A stretch of DNA of 64,000 nt from Cadophora sp. MPI-SDFR-AT-0126 (lineage: Eukaryota > Ascomycota > Leotiomycetes > Helotiales > Ploettnerulaceae), in NCBI GenBank assembly GCA_020747065.1, contig JAGMVK010000003.1, positions 1,054,001-1,118,000 of the forward strand, given 5' to 3'. Below, piece by piece: positions 4,532 to 50,024 of this stretch. Position 1 is the stretch's first letter, and each line of letters opens with the position of its first letter. Made by a program: the position numbers and the translations under genes. Below the pieces are notes generated by a model that worked only from the letters and a program-made list of their open reading frames with translations, did not search any database and was not told where the DNA came from.

Positions 4532-5598
4532 TTATAAGCCTTTTATATTAATTCTATAAATAGATTATTTACTATAAGTATTACTAAATATTCTTAAAAA
4601 AGCAATAGTTTGTTATTTATTTAGAATTATCTAAGAATATTAGATATAGCCTAGGCTTATAAAGATTCTAAAAAGGTAGTACGCTAATTAGCTTTTAATA
4701 TATAATCTATTAAAAATCCTTATTAGCTTAAATTAAACCTTTATTTATTATTATAAGTATAATTTAGGTTTAGTCTGTAATGGTTTTATTAGTTAGAATA
4801 TATTATCTAGTTTAAAGTAATTAGAACTTTCTTTTAAAATATAGAAATCTACTTATTTTTTTTTTAAAAAAAAAAAGTTCGGTATTAGTTTGTTTTTTAA
4901 TTTTTATTTTAACTCTTAATCTAGTATTCTTATTAACTAAGAATATTAGTTATTATATTATTTTTTCCTAATTAATAAGCTAATTAAAAATTAAACTTTA
5001 AGAAGAACTTAGTCTACTAAACTTATTAAATAATCAATTTTTTAATAATTATAAAATATTCGAGTATTTTATAGTCTAAGTAGACTAGGAATTTCTTTAT
5101 AATACTTACTAAATATATTTTCTAGGCTTAAAAACATTAAATAATAATAAATATTTTTTAATTATAAATCTTATAATTATACTCTATTAGTATTATTATC
5201 TTAAAAAATAATACTATATATTACTATAATCTATCTAGTTATAGCTAAGATAGAGCTCTAATTACTATACTATCTAATATATTAGTTTTAGCTTTAATAA
5301 GATATTTAGAATAAAAGTATACTATTCTAATATTCTTAGTAAGTTTATTCTTAAATTACTAGAATATAGCTTAGCAGATATTATTCTAATTTTATATATA
5401 GCTCTTAAAAATAAGTTAATTTAGAGAATAAGCTAAACGATTATAAATAAGAATAAAACATTAGTAAAAGTTATAAAATCTAAAAAAAAATTAAACTTTT
5501 CTTTATAATAATAGACTTTTTCTAATACTAGACTATAGATACTTTATTTAAATCCAGGGAAATCCTTTTAGTACTAATAATAAAATTAAAGTACTTAG
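4532..5598. other. AT-rich RIP-degraded spacer, nothing recognised
   Basis: About 1.1 kb of extremely AT-rich, TpA-dominated sequence between the piggyBac-like and Tc1/mariner elements. It may be the continuation of the retrotransposon split by the piggyBac-like element, but no reverse transcriptase, integrase or second LTR could be read on either strand. Confidence 0.5.
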
Positions 5599-5600
5599 TA

Positions 5601-6901
5601 CAAATCGGTTCCCACAAGTGTTCGCCAATTTAACCGCTTTTGGAATAGTAACTCGCAGGGTACACACCCTACTTCCCACATATCCTCTACACCAAAACTA
5701 CTCTTATTCTCCACTAAAACCTGTACTATGGGTGTCGCGCCGAAAACAAGCCGTCGAGAGACATCTCCGACTCGGAGAGCTGAGGTTTAGACTCGCTGGA
5801 AGGACGGCTATTCGATTCCTTAAATTGTGGAGCTTAAAGACCTACCCCGCTCTACTGTACGCTCAATTATCGAGCGTTGTGAAGCACGAGGTCGAGCTGC
5901 CTTTAAAAACCTCCTACGAAGTGGTGCTCCACCGAAGACTACTCTACGGAATAATCGTGCTCTTATACGATACGTAAATAAAGACATAAAAGCGACCCTC
6001 CACGCGCTCGCAACTCCGTCTAAATCGATAAAGCAACTTGGACGGAACCTCGTACGCAAAATCCTCAAAACCGCCGGCAAATCGAAGCGTCGACCTCGGA
6101 AGAAGCCTTTCTTAAAGGAAGAGCATAAATATTAACATCGTGTGTAGTATAAGGAAAAAAAAACACTTAAACGAGACTGGAATAAGGTGTGTTAGTCCAA
6201 CGAAGTTACCTTCCATATCGGTGCCGATAGATCGGTGTTTTATGTAACTCGTGGCGCTGGAGAAGAATACCTTGAAAAGAACTCGAAGCCTAGCTTTAAG
6301 TTAGGGAGGACAACTATCGGTGTTTGGTCTTGTTATTGCGGAGACGAAATGGGCCCGTTGGTAATTATTCCAAAGGATGGGACCATAACAGCGGCTCGAT
6401 ACTTGGAAACTATAAAGAAGTACTTTATACCTTTCTATTAACAAATAAGGCAAAAGTACGGCTCAGAAGTAATTATACAAGAAGATAACGCTTCGTGGCA
6501 TAAGGCAAAGCTCATAACGAATTAGCTCGATAAGCAAGGAGTTAAGAGGCTTCGCTGGCCCGCATAATCTCCCGATCTTTCGCCGATTAAGAATTTGTGG
6601 AAGCAAATCAAGATTCTGATTAGGAAAAGGAGGCATAGAATCAAGAATTAAGGCATGATAGAAAGAGCGTTGGAAGAAATCTGGCCTACAATTACTAAGG
6701 AATCGCTTTTAAAGTTGAATGCCTTTATACTAAGGCGCTTGAACTTATGCTTGAAAAACAAGGGAGGATCGATTAAGTATTAGAATAGCTTCAATTTCAT
6801 ATATTTACCTTAATTATATCTCTCTTCGTTGTGAAATTACATGTGTTGCAAGTGGAATGTGCGCTAAACCCGAAGTGGCGAACACTTCCAGGAACCTATT
6901 G
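5601..6901 (+). mobile_element. Tc1/mariner-family transposon, complete, 1,301 bp
   Basis: Inverted terminal repeats of about 26 bp: left CAAATCGGTTCC followed by AAGTGTTCGCCA (5601-5627), right the reverse complement (6876-6901). Each is flanked by a TA dinucleotide (5599-5600 and 6902-6903), the hallmark target duplication of this superfamily. Length matches typical fungal Tc1/mariner elements. It holds one transposase pseudogene and lies as a GC-richer block inside AT-rich sequence, so it inserted later than its surroundings decayed. Confidence 0.92.
5728..6783 (+). pseudogene. Tc1-like DDE transposase pseudogene
   Basis: From ATG 5728 to TAG 6781-6783 a single frame of 351 codons runs through without a frameshift, interrupted by nine internal TAA/TAG codons. 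It shows an N-terminal helix-turn-helix part (DLPRSTVRSIIERC), then the DDE region: SNEVTFHIGADRSVFY, IIQEDNASWHKA, and SPDLSPIKNLW. In the family the first catalytic Asp (SDE) is Asn here and the third catalytic Glu (PIENLW) is Lys; the middle Asp in QEDNA remains. The pattern is transition-only damage typical of RIP, and the protein would be inactive even without the stops. Its relation to named fungal families such as impala cannot be judged without a search. Confidence 0.92.
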
Positions 6902-6903
6902 TA

Positions 6904-9900
6904 CTTATAACTTCAAATTTATATTTCTTAAGATTAACTTAGAGTTCTATATTACTAAATTAATATAATACTTTTCGGATATATTCCTAATATTTTTATA
7001 TAATATTAAAATAAATAAAAATATTATCTAAGTAAACTATATAAAAGTTAATTAAGAAACTAAATAGTATATTATTTATATAATATTAAAAAGTAACAGG
7101 TCTATTAGTTAAGTTAAATAATAGTACTTTATATTTATAAAAACTATACTATATTTAGAAAATAGTAAATTTCTTATTATTAGAATCTATTTAAATATAA
7201 TAAAATATTTAATAAATATCTAGCTCTATAAAAATATTTAACCTTAGAAATCTATTTAAGTATTTTATTAATAAAAAAAATATCGTTTCTTTTTTATAAA
7301 AGAGTCTAATTTCTAAAAAGTAATATAAAACCGAAGTATTCTATCTATTTTCTTAATAAGTAAATAAAGAATAAAAAAAAGACTTAACTAAGCTTAATAA
7401 ATCTTTTAGTAAAGTTATCTAAAAAATACTTTTTTAAAGCTTTTAATTTTATTATATATATATTATAGAATAGATAATACTTAGGATTAAGTTCTTTATT
7501 AAACTTAATCGTATAAGCTATAAGTTAGTAAAATAGTAACTTATCTAAAACAGATTTAGAAAATATATAAGAAAATTTATGAATATATTCTAGTTATAAT
7601 TAAGAAAGTTCAACTAATTTTATATTTATTATACTAAAAAGTACTTATATTATATAGTCCTAGTCTTATAGAAAGAGTAATTCAATAATATATTTTATAT
7701 AAACTAGTAGTAAATATCTTATTTTTAGTATTTCGAAGTACTATATAAAATACGAAAATACTTATAATACTAATATTTAAAAAAAAATTAGAATAATTTG
7801 TAAATTTATTTAAGTATTATTTTAATCTAAGATTTAAAATATCTTCTATATTACTTCTTTTTTTAACTAAAATAGGCTAGGCTTTTTTCTAAGAATAAAA
7901 ATGAAGTAAAAAAAATAAAATAGTTTCTAAAATTAAAAGAAATTTATAATATAGATTATAAATTTAATAAAAAAAAGAATCTTATATTAGAATATTTCTT
8001 TGATTTATATCTTATTAATAAATAAGATTTAGAAAAGATAATAAAAAAATAAAATAATCCATAATATAAATATTATAAGAATTATAAGTATAATATTCTT
8101 TTAGAAACTAGAAGACTCTCTTTTTTTAATAGTTAATACTAATATTATATTTAATAAACTATATATAACTAAAAATAATATTATAATTACTAAAATTTAG
8201 AAATATAAAAGATATTTAATAAAAATATCTTTTTCTAATATTAATATTTAGTATAATACATTTAATAATAAGGTAAATATTATTTTTATTAAATCCGATT
8301 ACTTTAATTAGATAAGAAAAAAAAGAAATAGAGAGCTTAAAGCGTTTTCTAAGAAAAAAAAAATATTAATTATAATATAGTAATTTATTTTAGAATTAAG
8401 TAATATAAAGATATAAAAACTAATTATATTATATAAAAATATAATAAAAATCTTTAAATATAATTTATTTATAAATTAATTTAAGTTAATATAAGTATAA
8501 TTAATTATAAGACTTAAGAAAAAATCTTTTCTTAAATTAACTTATTTTTAATTACTTATTTTTTTTTTCTAAATCCTTATTTTATTTATCTAATCTAACT
8601 AAAATAATAAGATTAATCTTTATCTAGATAATTATTATTTTAAGAATACTAAAAGTTAAGTTAATAGAGTTCAAGTAATTTTATTAAAAGTAGTATTTTT
8701 TTAATAATTATAATAAGTCTTTTTTTAAAATAAAAAAACTAAGCTTAAATAAAAAATAATAAGATAAAACAGTCTTTATAAATAAAAAAAAATAAAAATA
8801 AGATTAACAATATCTTTGAAATAAGCTTAATATCTAGTATAAAATATTAATTTATTAAAAAAACTATATATTTTATAAATATCTTAATTATTCTAAAAAT
8901 TAATTAATAGTAGTTTATTATCTAATAGAAATTATAATTATTATTATTAATATAAATTAATATATAATAAAAGATTAAAAAGTTTAAGTAGGTATATTAA
9001 GTTAAAATAATCTAATAAGCTAAGCTAAGTAAGATCTTTTTGAAGAGCTCTTTTATTTACTTATATTTTAAGATCTGTCTTATATTTATAAAATATAAGA
9101 ACTTTATTTAGGACTAAGTAAATATCTTTATTTTACTTATATAAAAGATTTATAAGATATAATAAGTATTTTATATTTTATTAGAATTATAATAAATATT
9201 AGCTAAGTAAATAATAAGTTCGTTAACTATTAATAGATTATATACTATTCTACTATAATATATAAAATCTAAATAACAAATAGTCTTTTTTTTAGTATAG
9301 CTAAAAATATTTTTATTTTTATTTTTTTAATAAAAAGTAATTATAATTAAAAATAACTTATTTTTTATAATATATTTTTAGTACTTAAATACAAAAGAAA
9401 TACTATTATTAAGTTAAAGTAAGTATAAAAAATTAACTATTTTCGAACTATAGAAGCCTTAGTAATAAGCTTTTAAGTATAATTATACTAAGATTTAAGA
9501 AAAAAAGTTAATTAAATTATAAATAAAAGAATAGACCTTCTGTTTAAGTAAATATACTATAAGAGTACCTAGTATAATAGTACTATAATAAATAGTATTT
9601 TTTAAAAAACAGACTTAAAGTTCGAGGTCTTTTAATTATTTTAACTATTTAATTAGTTATAGATAAACTAGAATTAATTTTTATAGTTATTTAATTACTT
9701 ATCTACTAAATAATAGTCTTAAGAGCTAGTCTTACTATTTCTGCGTATATAGCTTTTTCTATAATAAGACTATAGCTTTTTCTATAATAAGACTACTAAA
9801 ATAATATAACTATAGAAATCTAGTGATCTAAAAGAATAAGATATAATAAAAATATCTTTCTTATATAATCTAAATACTAGAAGAGTATTTTATCTAAATT

Positions 9901-32190: not shown

Positions 32191-34616
32191 CTACATGGAC
32201 CCCGGAAGCCACTCACCTCCAAGGTTTTTCTTCATAGCTCTACGCAAATTCTCATTCAAATCCCGAGCATCTCTCAAACATGCAAGAAGCATCTCTGCTG
32301 CCCCTTCATGCTTCAAGACATGCACAGGCGTAATACTGCCTGGCATAACTCCCTGGCGGTACCCGGGCTCGCAACATTCGGCAATTTCTCCTAATCGCCG
32401 ATCAACAGGTTCAAGATCCACATCCGGCGCCGTAATAGTCAGGAATTCCTTCAATCCAACGACCTCTAACTCATCGCGGCCAAGTGGAGTGGAGGGTGGA
32501 TTCTCAACCTCGATAGTCTGTTTGCGAGGGCGAATGATTGCGTAGCGGACATGCCCGCAGGAGCTTTCTGCTTCTTGCTTGGACGCCTGAGGATTCCAGC
32601 CTTTTCCAGATGTGATGAGGACGGTCCAGCCGTCTGGTGACAAGTCGCGAATCTTGGGTCTGATATCATCGGGGATGTTGTCATCGCCTATTGCGAAGCT
32701 TTCCGCTGGGATAGGAGATATTTCGACCGAAGATAGGCTGGAAGATGTAAGAGATGCTGGGGCGCTGGAAAAGCTGAAAAGACGCGCAGAAGAATTGAAG
32801 TCCTCCTTTACCGGAAAATTGGACTTGGAGCTGTGGAGATAAGTCAGGAAACCGGCAGCAAACCGCTCAGGTGCGAGAAGGCTGTCGCCCAAATAGACGG
32901 AAGCGGTTTTGTATGGAGTACCTCGGGTAATTTGGTAGCTGATGAGAATTTGCTGGATAGGGAATATAGAAAGGGGTGCTGTTTGAATCGTGCTCGCGGA
33001 CGTGCTTGTGTTCTTCGAGATAGTTGGGAGCCAAAAGATCTTGCGAAGAGCAGCTGAGTATGACCCCGCGAACGTGAGTTTCACTCTCGAGAAAAAGTGC
33101 GGTCGAGTAGCGAGAGCTTCAAGAAGCTCCACGTCTGGCGTGTCGGCTTTCCGCAAGGGGCTTTGCATGAGGTATATCTCGCGAAGACTTTCCGATTTCG
33201 AAAGTCCCTCCATGAGCTCAGGCGATAGGTTTCGCATGGTGCTTGTGCAGATACTGATCGACGATATCGTACCCAACTCGGGAATGTTCACAGCCGCTGA
33301 GATGGCTTCCACTGAGATGTCATCCAGTTGTTCTAAGCAGAGATGTTCCCCATCGGCGAATGCAAGTCGAAGAAGAATGCCTGCAGACTGCGTGTTTCCA
33401 AGTCTGTTGGAGTATTGCAGCAAATTGCGCTGTAGCATTTCCTTGAAGTTGGGGACTTTTCGAACATCATCAAAAATAGAGATGTTGAAATTTTCAACAT
33501 CTATCGTACTTTGCTAAAGGTTCGAAGATTATAATTAGCAATGTAGGATGAAAACTGCAATTTGAAACAATAAAAGGAGATGTTCATATGCGTGGGTCTT
33601 GCACTATAACGAACGGCCGTTGTATATCTGTACGTGGTGCTAATCGATAACGCATGGAGTCTTGAGTACTTACGAATAGGCTTCTGATAGCCTGCTCATG
33701 CAAGGATTTCTTCGTTCCAATTGACAAATCGGCCATTGGAAGTGTAATGTCGTACTCTGAACCACCAGGCCAGATAATGTCCAGTGCATCCGAGTGGACA
33801 AGAGGTATTCGAGCCAGTAGCTTCTTGACCTCTTCACCCTCAGGGGGCTCCGGGATTGTATCTGGACCTGGGAATTTGGTCAAGTATTCAGCAGCAGACA
33901 TGACGACTCGAGATCGCGCCTGGTCTAGAACGCGCATTTCGCCCCCAGAGTTGGACGGGGGTACGTGAGACCCTACGGGTCCTGTTTGTCGGTGGAATGC
34001 TTCAGCAGAAGGAACCCACATCATTGGCATCGTCGCAAACCCAACAACTCCATATCGCAGTGCGCTGAGGTCCGTGATATCGATGACTACCATGCCATAC
34101 TCGATGCTTATATCGCGATAGACGGTACCCAAAGGTTGCGGGGCTGCTTGGTAGCAATAGCTCTCTTGGGGATACAAAGCAACCCCTTGGAGCAAGCAAG
34201 CGGTAATGAATGGAAACTCTCGTACATTAGTATGGTCCCACGAATCTGACTCCATTCTGGGGGTAACGATCGCTCGCATCATTCTCTCGTAGCTCTACTT
34301 GTTCAGGACGATATTCCTCATGCCCTTCATCTCTCATATAATAGCCTGCAGCAAGAGATAATTCGGCTTTTATCGCCGTGCGATTAGTCTTGTCTGAGAA
34401 GATGGTGATGATCCTTTGGCAAGCTGCAATGAGAGGGAACCCTTGCAGCGAACCTATTCCATCTCCGTGTTCTGGATCCGCTGGTCCTCTGCTGGATACC
34501 ACGGCAATGGGACGGCGACGTCCAGCGATCTGGGCTACGACAAAGAAAACAAATGAATAAGGGTTGCGAGACAGACCAAAGTGCCTCCAATACGGGGTAA
34601 ATGTTGTGGATGCCAT
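32191..34616 (-). CDS. Unrecognised fungal multi-exon gene, largely intact
   Basis: Minus strand, three open segments. Segment 1 from ATG 34616 (MASTTFTPYWRHFGLSRNPY; Arg-rich AGRRRPIAVVSSRGP). Segment 2 in another frame down to about 33,600 (EFPFITACLLQGVALYPQES; DITDLSALRYGVVGFATMPM; ends RPFVI). Segment 3 starts at 33510 after a convincing acceptor (GCTAAT branch-like site, then CCTTTAG) with QSTIDVENFNISIFDDV and runs open through 33438 to the stop at 32191-32193, including leucine-rich text (EQLDDISVEAISAAVNIPEL). Total is about 770 residues. The junction near 34.25-34.30 kb needs either a poorly matching intron or a frameshift, and the donor before 33510 is not canonical. No domain recognised; no signal peptide or clear membrane segment. 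It is the only gene here without RIP stops, so it is probably single-copy and possibly expressed. Confidence 0.6.
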
Positions 34617-46750: not shown

Positions 46751-47129
46751 TAATTAAACTAGAGAAATACTAATTAAGCATAGTCTACGCTAATCATAAG
46801 ATGACTAATATAATCTGATCAGCTTATGCGAGTACGCTTAAGATAGGAGAAGCTAGGAAAAAGGAGGTTGTATTACATACCTATAATTTCTATCCAAATG
46901 CTTAACTTATAGTAATAACTTCTGCATATAATATCCGCATTAAATTGCGTTTAAGTTCCTTGAAGCTGGCTTACATACGACAATAAAAGTTAAGAATAGC
47001 TTGTAATTATATATACGTGCGTTAATTAAATAATTTGAAAATATCTAAGGGAATAACCTTATCGCAATCTCCTATAAGGACATAATCACACAAGGACTTT
47101 ATACTCGATTCTGGCTGCTTCTTACTGAT
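46751..47129. other. Spacer between FRE and sirtuin pseudogenes
   Basis: The two genes converge here. AT-rich, possibly with the FRE 3' end in its first part. Nothing else recognised. Confidence 0.35.
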
Positions 47130-47257
47130 CTAAAAACTTACTCCACCTACGCTTCGAGCAGCGCGGCAAAAGTTTGTGACTATCGACCGAGCGCCAGGAA
47201 TCCGTAGCTTCGTGCCAACGATCAACATTAACTCCGGGCATGTTCTCAAATCATGCT

Positions 47258-47259
47258 TA
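47258..47259. repeat. Left TA target-site duplication of the MYND element
   Basis: TA immediately before the left inverted repeat, matched by TA at 49039-49040. Removing the element and one TA leaves an uninterrupted sirtuin frame across the junction. Confidence 0.85.
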
Positions 47260-47301
47260 ACGTCCCTCCCTGCGTGCCGAGAAACCCTACGTACCGAGAA
47301 A
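47260..47301. repeat. Left terminal inverted repeat of the MYND element
   Basis: Begins ACGTCCCTCCCTGCGT and continues with GAGAAACCC and CCGAGAAA. About 42 bp; it matches the reverse complement of 48997-49038 with about five mismatches. Confidence 0.9.
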
Positions 47302-47765
47302 ACCGAGGGGTACTTTGGCATTAAGCAACCCAAACTTTGTGCATACATCGATAGTTATCATAGCTATATATAAAGTTGTATACTATAACTACTTCTCAAT
47401 ATCGAGAACCTTTCTACTTAGTACATTACGTTCGCATCGTCGTAATCGAGCCCTTTTGTGGAGAGCCTCTTCTCATGGCATAAAGTGAATTTCTTTACCA
47501 CGACTCCATCATCAAGCTTGTATTACTATTAAAACCTATAAATGGCCCATATCTGACCTCCAGAGTCCCGTAGTAATGCTGGGGAATCATAATCAGCTTT
47601 ATGGCAGTCGTGGAGCGCAAATTCATCCAAGGTCGCTACGCGGGCTAGTACGTACCTCTAATTAAAGCGGCTAGCGGGTTTTAGTTACTGGTAGTGCAAA
47701 CGACCCCGCATTCTTCATCACCTCTACTCTCTATTAACATCTTAACATTAATCCTCTACCACTAG

Positions 47766-48368
47766 ATGGCAACTCCTACTTGTATAATTTGTAATGGCTT
47801 TAATGCCAAATTCTGCTCCTTATGCTATTCGATTTCATACTGCTCTCCAGAATGTCAAAAACCCGACTGGCCCCTTCACAAGACGATCTGTAAGACCTTC
47901 ACAACCTTGCCCCCACGATCATCACCTTCGCATAAACTCGCAATCCTCTTTCCAATCGATTCAAAAGATCTACAACTCATCTAGATCAAGTGCGAACGAC
48001 ACGTTGATAATAAAGACGGAATTGTATGGGAGATGCCAGATACTCAACAACTTCTAGAGATCGAGAGCCTTGACCCTAAATACTATGCCAGAGAGTTCCT
48101 AAAGATAAGGCGGAATGCACTTCGCGGATTTAATCTCAACTACACGGTTAAGGTTATTGGTCGCGAAGCTGCTCTAATTAACGGCTCCACGCCTAATATT
48201 TGTGTTCGACATACCACGAAAGGGCAAACGACACACGTCTGGAAGGGACCAATAGTGGTTATGCGTCAGTCGGGCACGGCTATTGACCCTTTGTTCTACG
48301 AGGATATAAGGGCTGGTGATTTTCGAGTTGCGGTCGATTATTTTCTCTCTTATGGAAGGGGTTTATAA
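47766..48368 (+). pseudogene. MYND zinc-finger protein, one premature stop
   Basis: ATG 47766 starts a 200-codon frame with a single internal TAG at 47982-47984 (context LQLI-stop-IKCERH, probably from TGG) and the natural stop at 48366-48368. Residues about 5-42 form a MYND finger: CIICNGFNAKFCSLCYS, then YCSPECQKPDWPLHKTIC, giving CX2C, CX2C, CX3C and HX3C zinc ligands. The rest is a small globular domain (PKYYAREFLKIRRNALRGFN; HVWKGPIVVMRQSGTAIDPL). MYND fingers bind proline-rich peptides in protein complexes. It lies alone inside the TA-flanked element, with about 460 bp upstream as a possible promoter. If translation started at 48033 (in-frame ATG) a 111-residue product without the finger would remain. 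Confidence 0.8.
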
Positions 48369-48996
48369 TCTAGCTTGAAGGTACTTCCTTAGAGCTAGGA
48401 CATAAGGTTTAGACTACGCAAATGTGGTTAAAATAAGTAGAAACCACTTAGATAGGTCGGCATGTGGCGAATAAGACTTGTTTGGGATCCGATTTGGCGA
48501 AGGAATGGGGGAAGTGAGGATTGTCCGTAATAGATAATGTTAAAACAAAAATTTCAGGAAATCGAAAGCATTTATTAGTATACAAAGTGAGCTGGCTTCT
48601 TGCTAGCGGGTTGTTTTGCGCTAACCATAATTAGTTAGTTACTTTGACAGGAGGTACTCCGTGTGGCGATCTTGCATAAATGTACGTGCCACAGAAGCCA
48701 TAATACTAGTGACGATTTCTGGCATCGTAGTAAGGCACTAATGCTCAGGTAAGACCTTTTTAAAAGTATAGTAATAATAAGAGCTCGATGGTAGAGTTGT
48801 GGTAAAAGAACTTTCTTTTACTATAAACGGAGATATCTGGTTAATCAGGTACGAGGGCGGTAATGCGAATGTAGTTTTTTAGTAAAAGGAGTTTAGAGTG
48901 TTTAGGGGTAGCGATAGGACACGAGTTATAGAAAAACAAAGGGTGGTTTAATAGATGAAAAAGTTTGAGATATCTAAAGTCGAAGTACTTATTAAA

Positions 48997-49038
48997 TTTC
49001 TCGGCACGGTGGGTTTCTCGCTACGCAGGGAGGGACGT
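48997..49038. repeat. Right terminal inverted repeat of the MYND element
   Basis: Reverse complement of the left repeat, ending AGGGAGGGACGT at 49038, followed by the TA duplication at 49039-49040 and sirtuin coding sequence. Confidence 0.9.
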
Positions 49039-50024
49039 TAGCAGTTTCCAGAATCTCTTTGCCATCTGGGTGAGGTTAGCCGTATAAAAGCAAGTTAGGT
49101 CTCAGCCTGCCAATCTTCAATAATCGCTTACCCTTCAATACCCGGGCCTGGCTTCTTTGCAAGCACCTTTGACAGTATAGCGAATCGGAACCGTGGAACA
49201 GATGTGGCTTATAGCCACAAACTTAGTTGCATATCTCGCATCGGGCTTAATCAACTCGACCATAGAGGCGCACCGTCTTAGCGTCGAGATCAGGTAATAG
49301 GCGCTCGACGCAATCAATATTCTGTGTATAGTACCGAAAATGAGAGCGAGTCCGCGCAAGCTCGTCTATAACCTTATAGAAAGGTAAAGGCTCGGTCAAA
49401 TCCGAATATAAGCGTTCACATATACCACGGACTATAAAGTAGAAACAGATTATCTCGTTTAAAGAGGAGTAAAGAGAGCGGTTAAATAAGGTCTGTTTAG
49501 ATTTCCATATATCCTTAAAAGTGGGAACTAGGTAAATTAGTATCGATGAAGGAATTTACAAACGAGCTTTAACTCACAGCCTACACTAACAAAGATACCG
49601 GTCCCGCTAATAACGACAATCTTTTCACTCGATCGCACGAGCTCTCTCAATCGGCTAAGGTCATCCACGGGTTCGCGGATAGTCTAAAGCGATCCCCTCA
49701 TTTGTTTAGCTCTTTTTCTAATGCGATAGTTGTAATTAATTAGTCCCTAAGTGGAAGCTGTCCGTTTTGGCAGATCTACATCATTATCGATTACTATTAG
49801 CCGATCTATTTCCACGATTAACAAACTTCGTAGTACTATATTTAAATCTCTTACCTCGAGAACCCTCCTAAGGGTATGCCCGCCTCTTCCTCGCCTTGGA
49901 GGCCGCGATCAAATTGTCACACGTCTTTTAAGCCCTTTTCAAACCAATGTTAGCATAAAGGCGCGTTCATTATCGCAACATCTTATTAAGTCGGATTTTG
50001 CAAATGCCATCTTCGTAATAGCGT

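Follow-up and report, generated by a model that had tools for sequence, protein, structure and literature searches.

Pack-Mariner elements of rice are non-autonomous terminal inverted repeat (TIR) elements that duplicate a TA target and contain host coding DNA, and the accessible text of the Pack-TYPE paper argues that DNA is taken up by joint mobilization of neighboring insertions (PMC8903248). In Fusarium oxysporum, the mimp and mFot5 elements insert at TA, are related to Tc1/mariner transposons (Impala, Fot5), and obtain their transposase from elsewhere, as far as the available part of that source describes them (PMC3599309). A fungal hAT transposon of Pseudocercospora and its relatives captured and multiplied a host gene, histone H3, the copies of which were hit by RIP (PMC6710886, accessible part). 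Starships are likewise fungal mobile DNA with cargo, and in the excerpt at hand one Starship NLR combines SesA, NACHT, and WD40 (PMC12134995). HNWD genes of Podospora anserina show the architecture HET-NACHT-WD40, and RIP-decayed copies of them are known; the term "inverted repeat" is absent from the main texts of the two papers concerned, and their HNWD passages describe no TIR units (PMC1805685, PMC12222747). The string "transpos" is absent from the main texts of PMC4986451 and PMC10197012, and a literature search in titles and abstract starts, with most subscription papers and bioRxiv outside its range, returned no NLR/HET genes in small TIR elements.

The window, a 64-kb stretch (64,000 nucleotides) of the genome of Cadophora sp. 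MPI-SDFR-AT-0126, lies on contig C23 and contains a TIR element with a single MYND-finger gene (Table 1; C-numbers denote contigs and L-numbers loci). Probably, this element is a member of a family of non-autonomous, TA-target TIR transposons that is moved in trans and mostly carries NLR/HET cargo. The left end reads TA-ACGTCCCT-CCCTGCGTGCCGAGAAA-CCCTACGTACCGAGAAA, and the right end is its inverted counterpart. As stated in the preliminary description, the inverted repeats of ~42 bp are flanked by TA on the outside of both ends; they agree at 89% over 44 bp (TA included) and are 75% complementary in an ungapped 81-bp extension. The inverted similarity of this unit consists of the core of 44 bp plus a short match further inward. 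A 140-bp profile built on 28 family ends, both window ends among them, recovers both of them in the window (E 3.4e-31 and 3.7e-27), with the next place at E 0.83. Within the element, neither a DDE motif, the absence of which had already been claimed, nor another transposase domain was seen.

Table 1. Coordinates of the window element and its flanks (window positions), and cargo of the two-ended family units (by locus)
Feature	Position or locus	Strand	Basis
Left flank, decayed sirtuin-like gene, downstream part	47009..47257	-	79% to L057; frame
Left TA copy, target-site duplication	47258..47259	.	single TA at empty site in L057
Element proper, 1,779 bp	47260..49038	.	ends set by empty site
Left inverted end, ACGTCCCT and two tandem 17-bp units (47268-47284, 47285-47301)	47260..47301	+	
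MYND-finger gene, 200 codons and stop, in-frame TAG at 47982-47984	47766..48368	+	PF01753; full-length homologues
Right inverted end, built like the left one in reverse orientation (17-bp units 48997-49013, 49014-49030)	48997..49038	-	
Right TA copy, target-site duplication	49039..49040	.	empty site in L057
Right flank, decayed sirtuin-like gene, upstream part	49041..49220	-	87% to L057; frame
HET-NACHT-WD40	L030, L034, L053; decayed in L032, L048		
HET-NB-ARC-TPR	L033, L049, L055; decayed in L031		
NACHT-WD40 beside PigL_N/SesA frame	L035		
PigL_N-NACHT-ankyrin	L038		
HET-WD40	L051, L036 (inner unit)		
HET alone	L054, L056		
MYND gene	window unit		
Alpha/beta hydrolase, HET-type fragment beside it	L037		
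382-aa frame without Pfam match	L050		
No gene, 250-bp MITE	L052:106-355		

The surroundings of the element are AT-rich (33% GC in the window), and the dinucleotide ratios are RIP-like (TpA/ApT 1.40). In the 64 kb, stop-to-stop frames of at least 180 amino acids number only two (440 and 236 amino acids), both on the minus strand at 32191-34294. A decayed Tc1-type DDE_3 domain with one TAG and two TAA codons is found at window positions 6349-6636 (C23:1060349-1060636).

The element interrupts a decayed gene that, from its motifs, we take to be a putative sirtuin. A paralogue of this gene (L057, C2:2100200-2100900) aligns with the left flank at 79% over 254 columns, up to ...AATCATGCT, and with the right flank at 87% over 180 columns, resuming from GCAGTTT (C2:2100468-2100648). 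Between the two aligned flanks, the paralogue possesses exactly TA, and the element is absent. Therefore, the insertion duplicated the TA, and the element proper measures 1,779 bp. When the flanks are joined with one TA, the frame is continuous through ...KEILETA/KHDLRTCPELMLIVGT..., which bears out the earlier observation of a sirtuin frame in register across the element. The same frame contains other stops, so that the element is not the only lesion of this gene copy. The alternative that the segment is a natural intron of the sirtuin orthologue is at odds with the paralogue, which lacks it.

Further copies with the same ends, the search for which had been proposed, are present throughout the genome. 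With up to three mismatches, the end motif occurs at 182 places in the 54-Mb genome, compared with eight for the reversed pattern, which excludes a chance origin of the ends; the double 17-mer pattern occurs at 52 places, compared with none for its control. These ends are dispersed over many contigs. The neighbor statistics refer to the 100 of the 182 places that were listed. Among these, 19 convergent neighbors lie within 8 kb, whereas 10.3 are expected under shuffled orientation (as high in one of 5000 shuffles), and another 15 neighbors are tandem and seven divergent. A stretch on C12 (3041620-3543924) holds 43 of the 100 listed ends and forms a hot spot of nested units. Fifteen of the 19 convergent pairs were read, the other four being C12:3302140, 3390988, 3399106, and 3465431.

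In total, 19 two-ended units were considered: the window unit, L030-L038 (L036 as its inner unit, 4820-8441), L048-L051, L052 (106-355), and L053-L056. The units read range from 0.25 to 6.5 kb. The window unit (1,779 bp, with a gene) is not a MITE in the sense of a short, non-coding element, whereas the 250-bp unit L052:106-355 is one. TA is found at both ends of the window unit and of 17 of the 18 further units (the exception being the right end of L053), although this is partly built in because the census motif itself contains TA, and only empty sites are independent of it. No longer target duplication recurs consistently in the 18 further units; L049 alone can be read as TATA. Left and right ends of the same unit are more similar than ends taken from different units (0.772 versus 0.705; none of 5000 shuffles; 19 units, with the outer of two possible right ends taken for L032). 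Inverted similarity exceeds 200 bp in 12 of the 19 units; for instance, it extends over 427 bp in L030 (78%), over 380 bp in L033 (84%), and over 521 bp in L053 (77%). Each end of the long units shows one outer terminus, and an inner second terminus, as in a complete MITE, was not seen.

Empty sites, which the preliminary description had suggested looking for, were found with one TA for the window unit, L056, and L052. For 11 units, joined 95-bp flanks served as queries against the genome. The HET gene unit L056 (C34:3202533-3206682) lies inside a repeat, four other copies of which run through the junction without the unit at 76–79% identity, two of them with identical length (183/183 and 177/177). 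For the other 10 of the 11 units, this search retrieved no uninterrupted empty site; the flanks of L035, L038, and L050 match elsewhere on one side only. The 250-bp unit of L052 interrupts an NB-ARC-TPR gene, and its joined flanks match the L055 paralogue over 217 columns without a gap. A reading of L052 as a 1.85-kb unit was ruled out in favor of a 250-bp unit nested in this gene. At the right end of L053, which lacks a clean TA, the right flank starts where a copy without the unit starts matching, and the left flank has no match at that copy.

What these ends enclose varies considerably (Table 1). NLR/HET-type genes were found in 15 of the 19 two-ended units and fall into six architectures. 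The cargo of L034 has the make-up of an HNWD-type NLR, with PF06985, PF24883/PF05729, and nine stretches of PF00400 in three adjoining frames; its closely similar WD repeats resemble those in the accessible HNWD descriptions (PMC1805685, PMC12222747). These assignments are based on the frames read, Pfam searches of 30 frames, and tblastn for L031, L032, L036, L037, and L048. The call for L030 follows the look of its frames, and the NB-ARC and TPR parts of L049, the HET parts of L055 and L051, and the WD40 part of L053 were recognized by eye; in the Pfam scan of L051, the best 25 families are all of the WD40 type.

Outside the 19-unit count stand L029, the outer unit of L036, and the loci with a single end, L039-L047. 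Among these, L029 is HET-NACHT-WD40 by tblastn, and L039 has Pfam matches to HET and NACHT, accompanied by a WD40-like frame; L040 contains a HET gene, and L043 a match to NPHP3_N (NACHT-like). L041, L042, and L047 are AT-rich and gave no match, and no NLR/HET match was found in L044 and L046. The single-ended locus L045 holds an OrsD/Fungal_trans_2 gene and a HET-type fragment.

The first loci were chosen by similarity to the window element, which might favor shared inner parts. Of eight regions picked as close convergent ends, six are HET/NLR-type units (L049, L051, L053, L054, L055, and L056), and the remaining two are L050 and L052. The genome is generally rich in HET genes (447 first-look candidates, 150 of them scored), at about one per 120 kb; a random stretch of 4–5 kb would be expected to include one in a few percent of cases. 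The share of NLR/HET cargo is given without a p-value, as the units are related to one another. The emphasis that the preliminary description placed on the MYND gene as a special feature has to be given up, since ends of this type enclose a variety of complete genes, for the most part NLR/HET, and also delimit a cargo-free MITE.

The MYND gene begins with a MYND finger (PF01753, E 3e-11), as had been described, but the 200-codon frame is not unbroken. The TAG at 47982-47984 falls at a position that is invariant in 37 aligned homologues, and the gene is damaged by this one in-frame stop. A protein search returned 45 homologues, with 82% identity over the full length in Rutstroemia, 81% (98% covered) in Glonium, and 68% in Cadophora gregata. 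The next best match in the own genome reaches only 41% (C8:950818-951420), so there is no recent donor in the genome. This donor test was run for the MYND cargo, for which no donor gene could be traced in the genome; the donor may have been lost or may reside in another genome. At C8:945454-951420, four adjoining places form a cluster of distant paralogues with 27–41% identity to the MYND protein, and no family end with up to one mismatch lies on C8 among the matches listed.

The higher identity to Glonium than to Cadophora gregata had prompted the idea of horizontal spread, which was dropped; a single Leotiomycete clade is not rejected (p-AU 0.516). In the tree, the window copy groups with Rutstroemia, Halenospora, and one further sequence. 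An AlphaFold2 model of the Rutstroemia homologue predicts a compact fold (mean pLDDT 90.9). Its best matches among solved structures are SMYD-type MYND regions, at E 0.022 and weaker over ~45–60 columns. The MYND finger is the one part of the predicted fold with a convincing likeness to solved structures, and we assign no function to the rest of the protein.

In the mechanism that we favor, a unit consists of inverted terminal blocks, ~42 bp of which are well conserved, around one or two genes as a rule. A TA-specific DDE transposase, most likely of the IS630/Tc1/mariner/pogo group, would be supplied in trans, bind the tandem 17-bp units in the ends, excise the whole unit with its cargo, and insert it at a TA, which would become duplicated. 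The units share the TA target-site duplication (empty sites of three units) and the terminal inverted repeats with this group, and the class of the transposase is suggested by the TA duplication alone. Duplication of TA together with TIRs is a known signature of Tc1/mariner relatives. Movement in trans is proposed because no transposase with family ends was found. Cargo might be taken up by joint mobilization of neighboring insertions, as for Pack-TYPE elements, which fits the cargo-free member, but an inner second MITE terminus was not seen in the long units. Since the ends have diverged and several units are decayed, the family may at most be presumed to be active at present. What stands of the original proposal is a small TA-flanked, gene-bearing mobile unit without a transposase, for which movement in trans is the simplest reading; its focus on MYND does not.

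The genome yields 128 DDE_1, 85 DDE_3, and no DDE_Tnp_4 matches, none of which lies inside the 19 convergent end pairs when coordinates are compared by eye. Harbinger/ISL2EU was discarded, as PF13359 has no match in the genome, and the 30 frames scanned by Pfam include no tyrosine recombinase. No relative in which such ends enclose a transposase was found among the units read (15 of the 19 convergent pairs, 100 of the 182 ends listed). It is conceivable that the genome holds an autonomous, pogo-like DDE_1 member of which the cargo units are deletion-and-capture derivatives. The candidate is a gene present in two copies (C12:3213749-3215700 and C12:3476225-3478149; 88% similar over 1,952 bp), and a "-" family end is located ~5.8 kb from each copy (5,780 and 5,753 bp). 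The TA target also fits this transposase group. However, the sequence read leftward of the two copies contains no facing "+" end, so that the gene at C12:3213749 is no more than a candidate for the autonomous copy, and its further copies (C35:1147151, C37:1896463, and C15:47135) have no family end with up to one mismatch nearby among the matches listed. Descent of the units from such a member is considered rather unlikely. The pogo-like gene has its DDE domain interrupted by a repeat of ~140 bp (L058:1505-1645, C12:3215004-3215144). Similar copies of this repeat are found immediately next to family ends (C16:585400-585536 and C36:2799692-2799798).

Alternatively, short cargo-free MITEs could have landed on both sides of resident NLR/HET genes in a MITE-rich neighborhood. 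A cargo-free member of 250 bp does exist, nearly half of the listed ends crowd into C12:3.04-3.54 Mb, and tandem and divergent neighbors occur beside the convergent ones. Yet the whole unit including its cargo is absent from the empty sites of the window unit and L056, so that this explanation is already contradicted for two loaded units. Moreover, the ends of the same unit match better than chance pairs, and the end of a long unit has a single outer terminus, where a complete MITE would show two, which renders this origin quite improbable for the family. Ordinary segmental duplication in a rearranging, repeat-rich cluster as the source of the NLR and MYND genes, with the inverted blocks as recombination substrates instead of transposon ends, would agree with the strong clustering on C12 and with nested and abutting units (L036, L037, and L055), but is very improbable in view of the dispersed ends and of empty sites outside C12 (on C23 and C34) at which TA is duplicated exactly. 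Movement without a DDE transposase, in which the carried genes take part, is hardly credible: although no transposase domain was recognized in the units read, TA duplication with TIRs is the signature named above, open DDE_1 frames occur in the genome, and the 250-bp L052 unit moved without cargo, so that cargo is not needed in cis.

As a non-autonomous TA-target family moved in trans, the Cadophora units are closest in mode to Pack-Mariner, judged by the accessible text of PMC8903248, in that non-autonomous TIR elements contain host coding DNA (NLR/HET in 15 of 19, plus the MYND and hydrolase genes). They differ from Pack-Mariner in being fungal and in a load of whole multi-domain genes, mostly NLR/HET (PMC8903248, same text), and from Pack-TYPE elements in that no autonomous member was found and the MYND cargo has no close donor gene in the genome. 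In host and in the size of the empty form, the family is closest to mimp/mFot5; mimps measure 200–220 bp, are non-coding, and are found near genes, whereas the Cadophora units enclose the gene, and only the 250-bp L052 unit is mimp-like in size (PMC3599309, available part). The Pseudocercospora hAT element, as far as described in the part at hand, does not target TA and spread one housekeeping gene in hundreds of copies rather than many receptor-type genes (PMC6710886). Starships are tens to hundreds of kilobases long and possess a tyrosine recombinase captain, in contrast to units of 0.25–6.5 kb here (PMC12134995, excerpt).

The unusual feature of the family is its load of whole multi-domain NLR/HET-type genes in most units read. 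The NLR/HET repertoires of fungi vary strongly between close relatives. If receptor-type genes are packaged singly in TA-inserting units, this would provide a concrete mechanism for their gain, loss, and relocation. We tentatively propose, as a possibility about which we remain somewhat doubtful, a transposon lineage specialized on immune-receptor genes, which lifts complete NLR/HET genes, perhaps with MYND-type partners, and scatters them, while RIP culls or alters the duplicates. From the known role of these families, the cargo would be expected to act in self/nonself recognition, and part of the self/nonself repertoire of the fungus would then consist of mobile elements. Such units are easy to overlook. 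For Phialocephala subalpina, a root endophyte with 534 reported HET-domain gene models, HET-domain sequences were purged from the repeat library as non-transposon, according to the accessible part of PMC5148876.

Some of the units are nested or abut one another. In L037 (1-8733), an L035-like PigL_N/NACHT-WD40 unit is followed by the hydrolase unit and then by TPR sequence. The L055 unit is followed immediately, beyond its right end, by the remnant of a second, MITE-like member (L055:4480-4613). A further convergent pair of ends at C15:570006-575019 surrounds a HET gene whose open frame comprises 590 amino acids.
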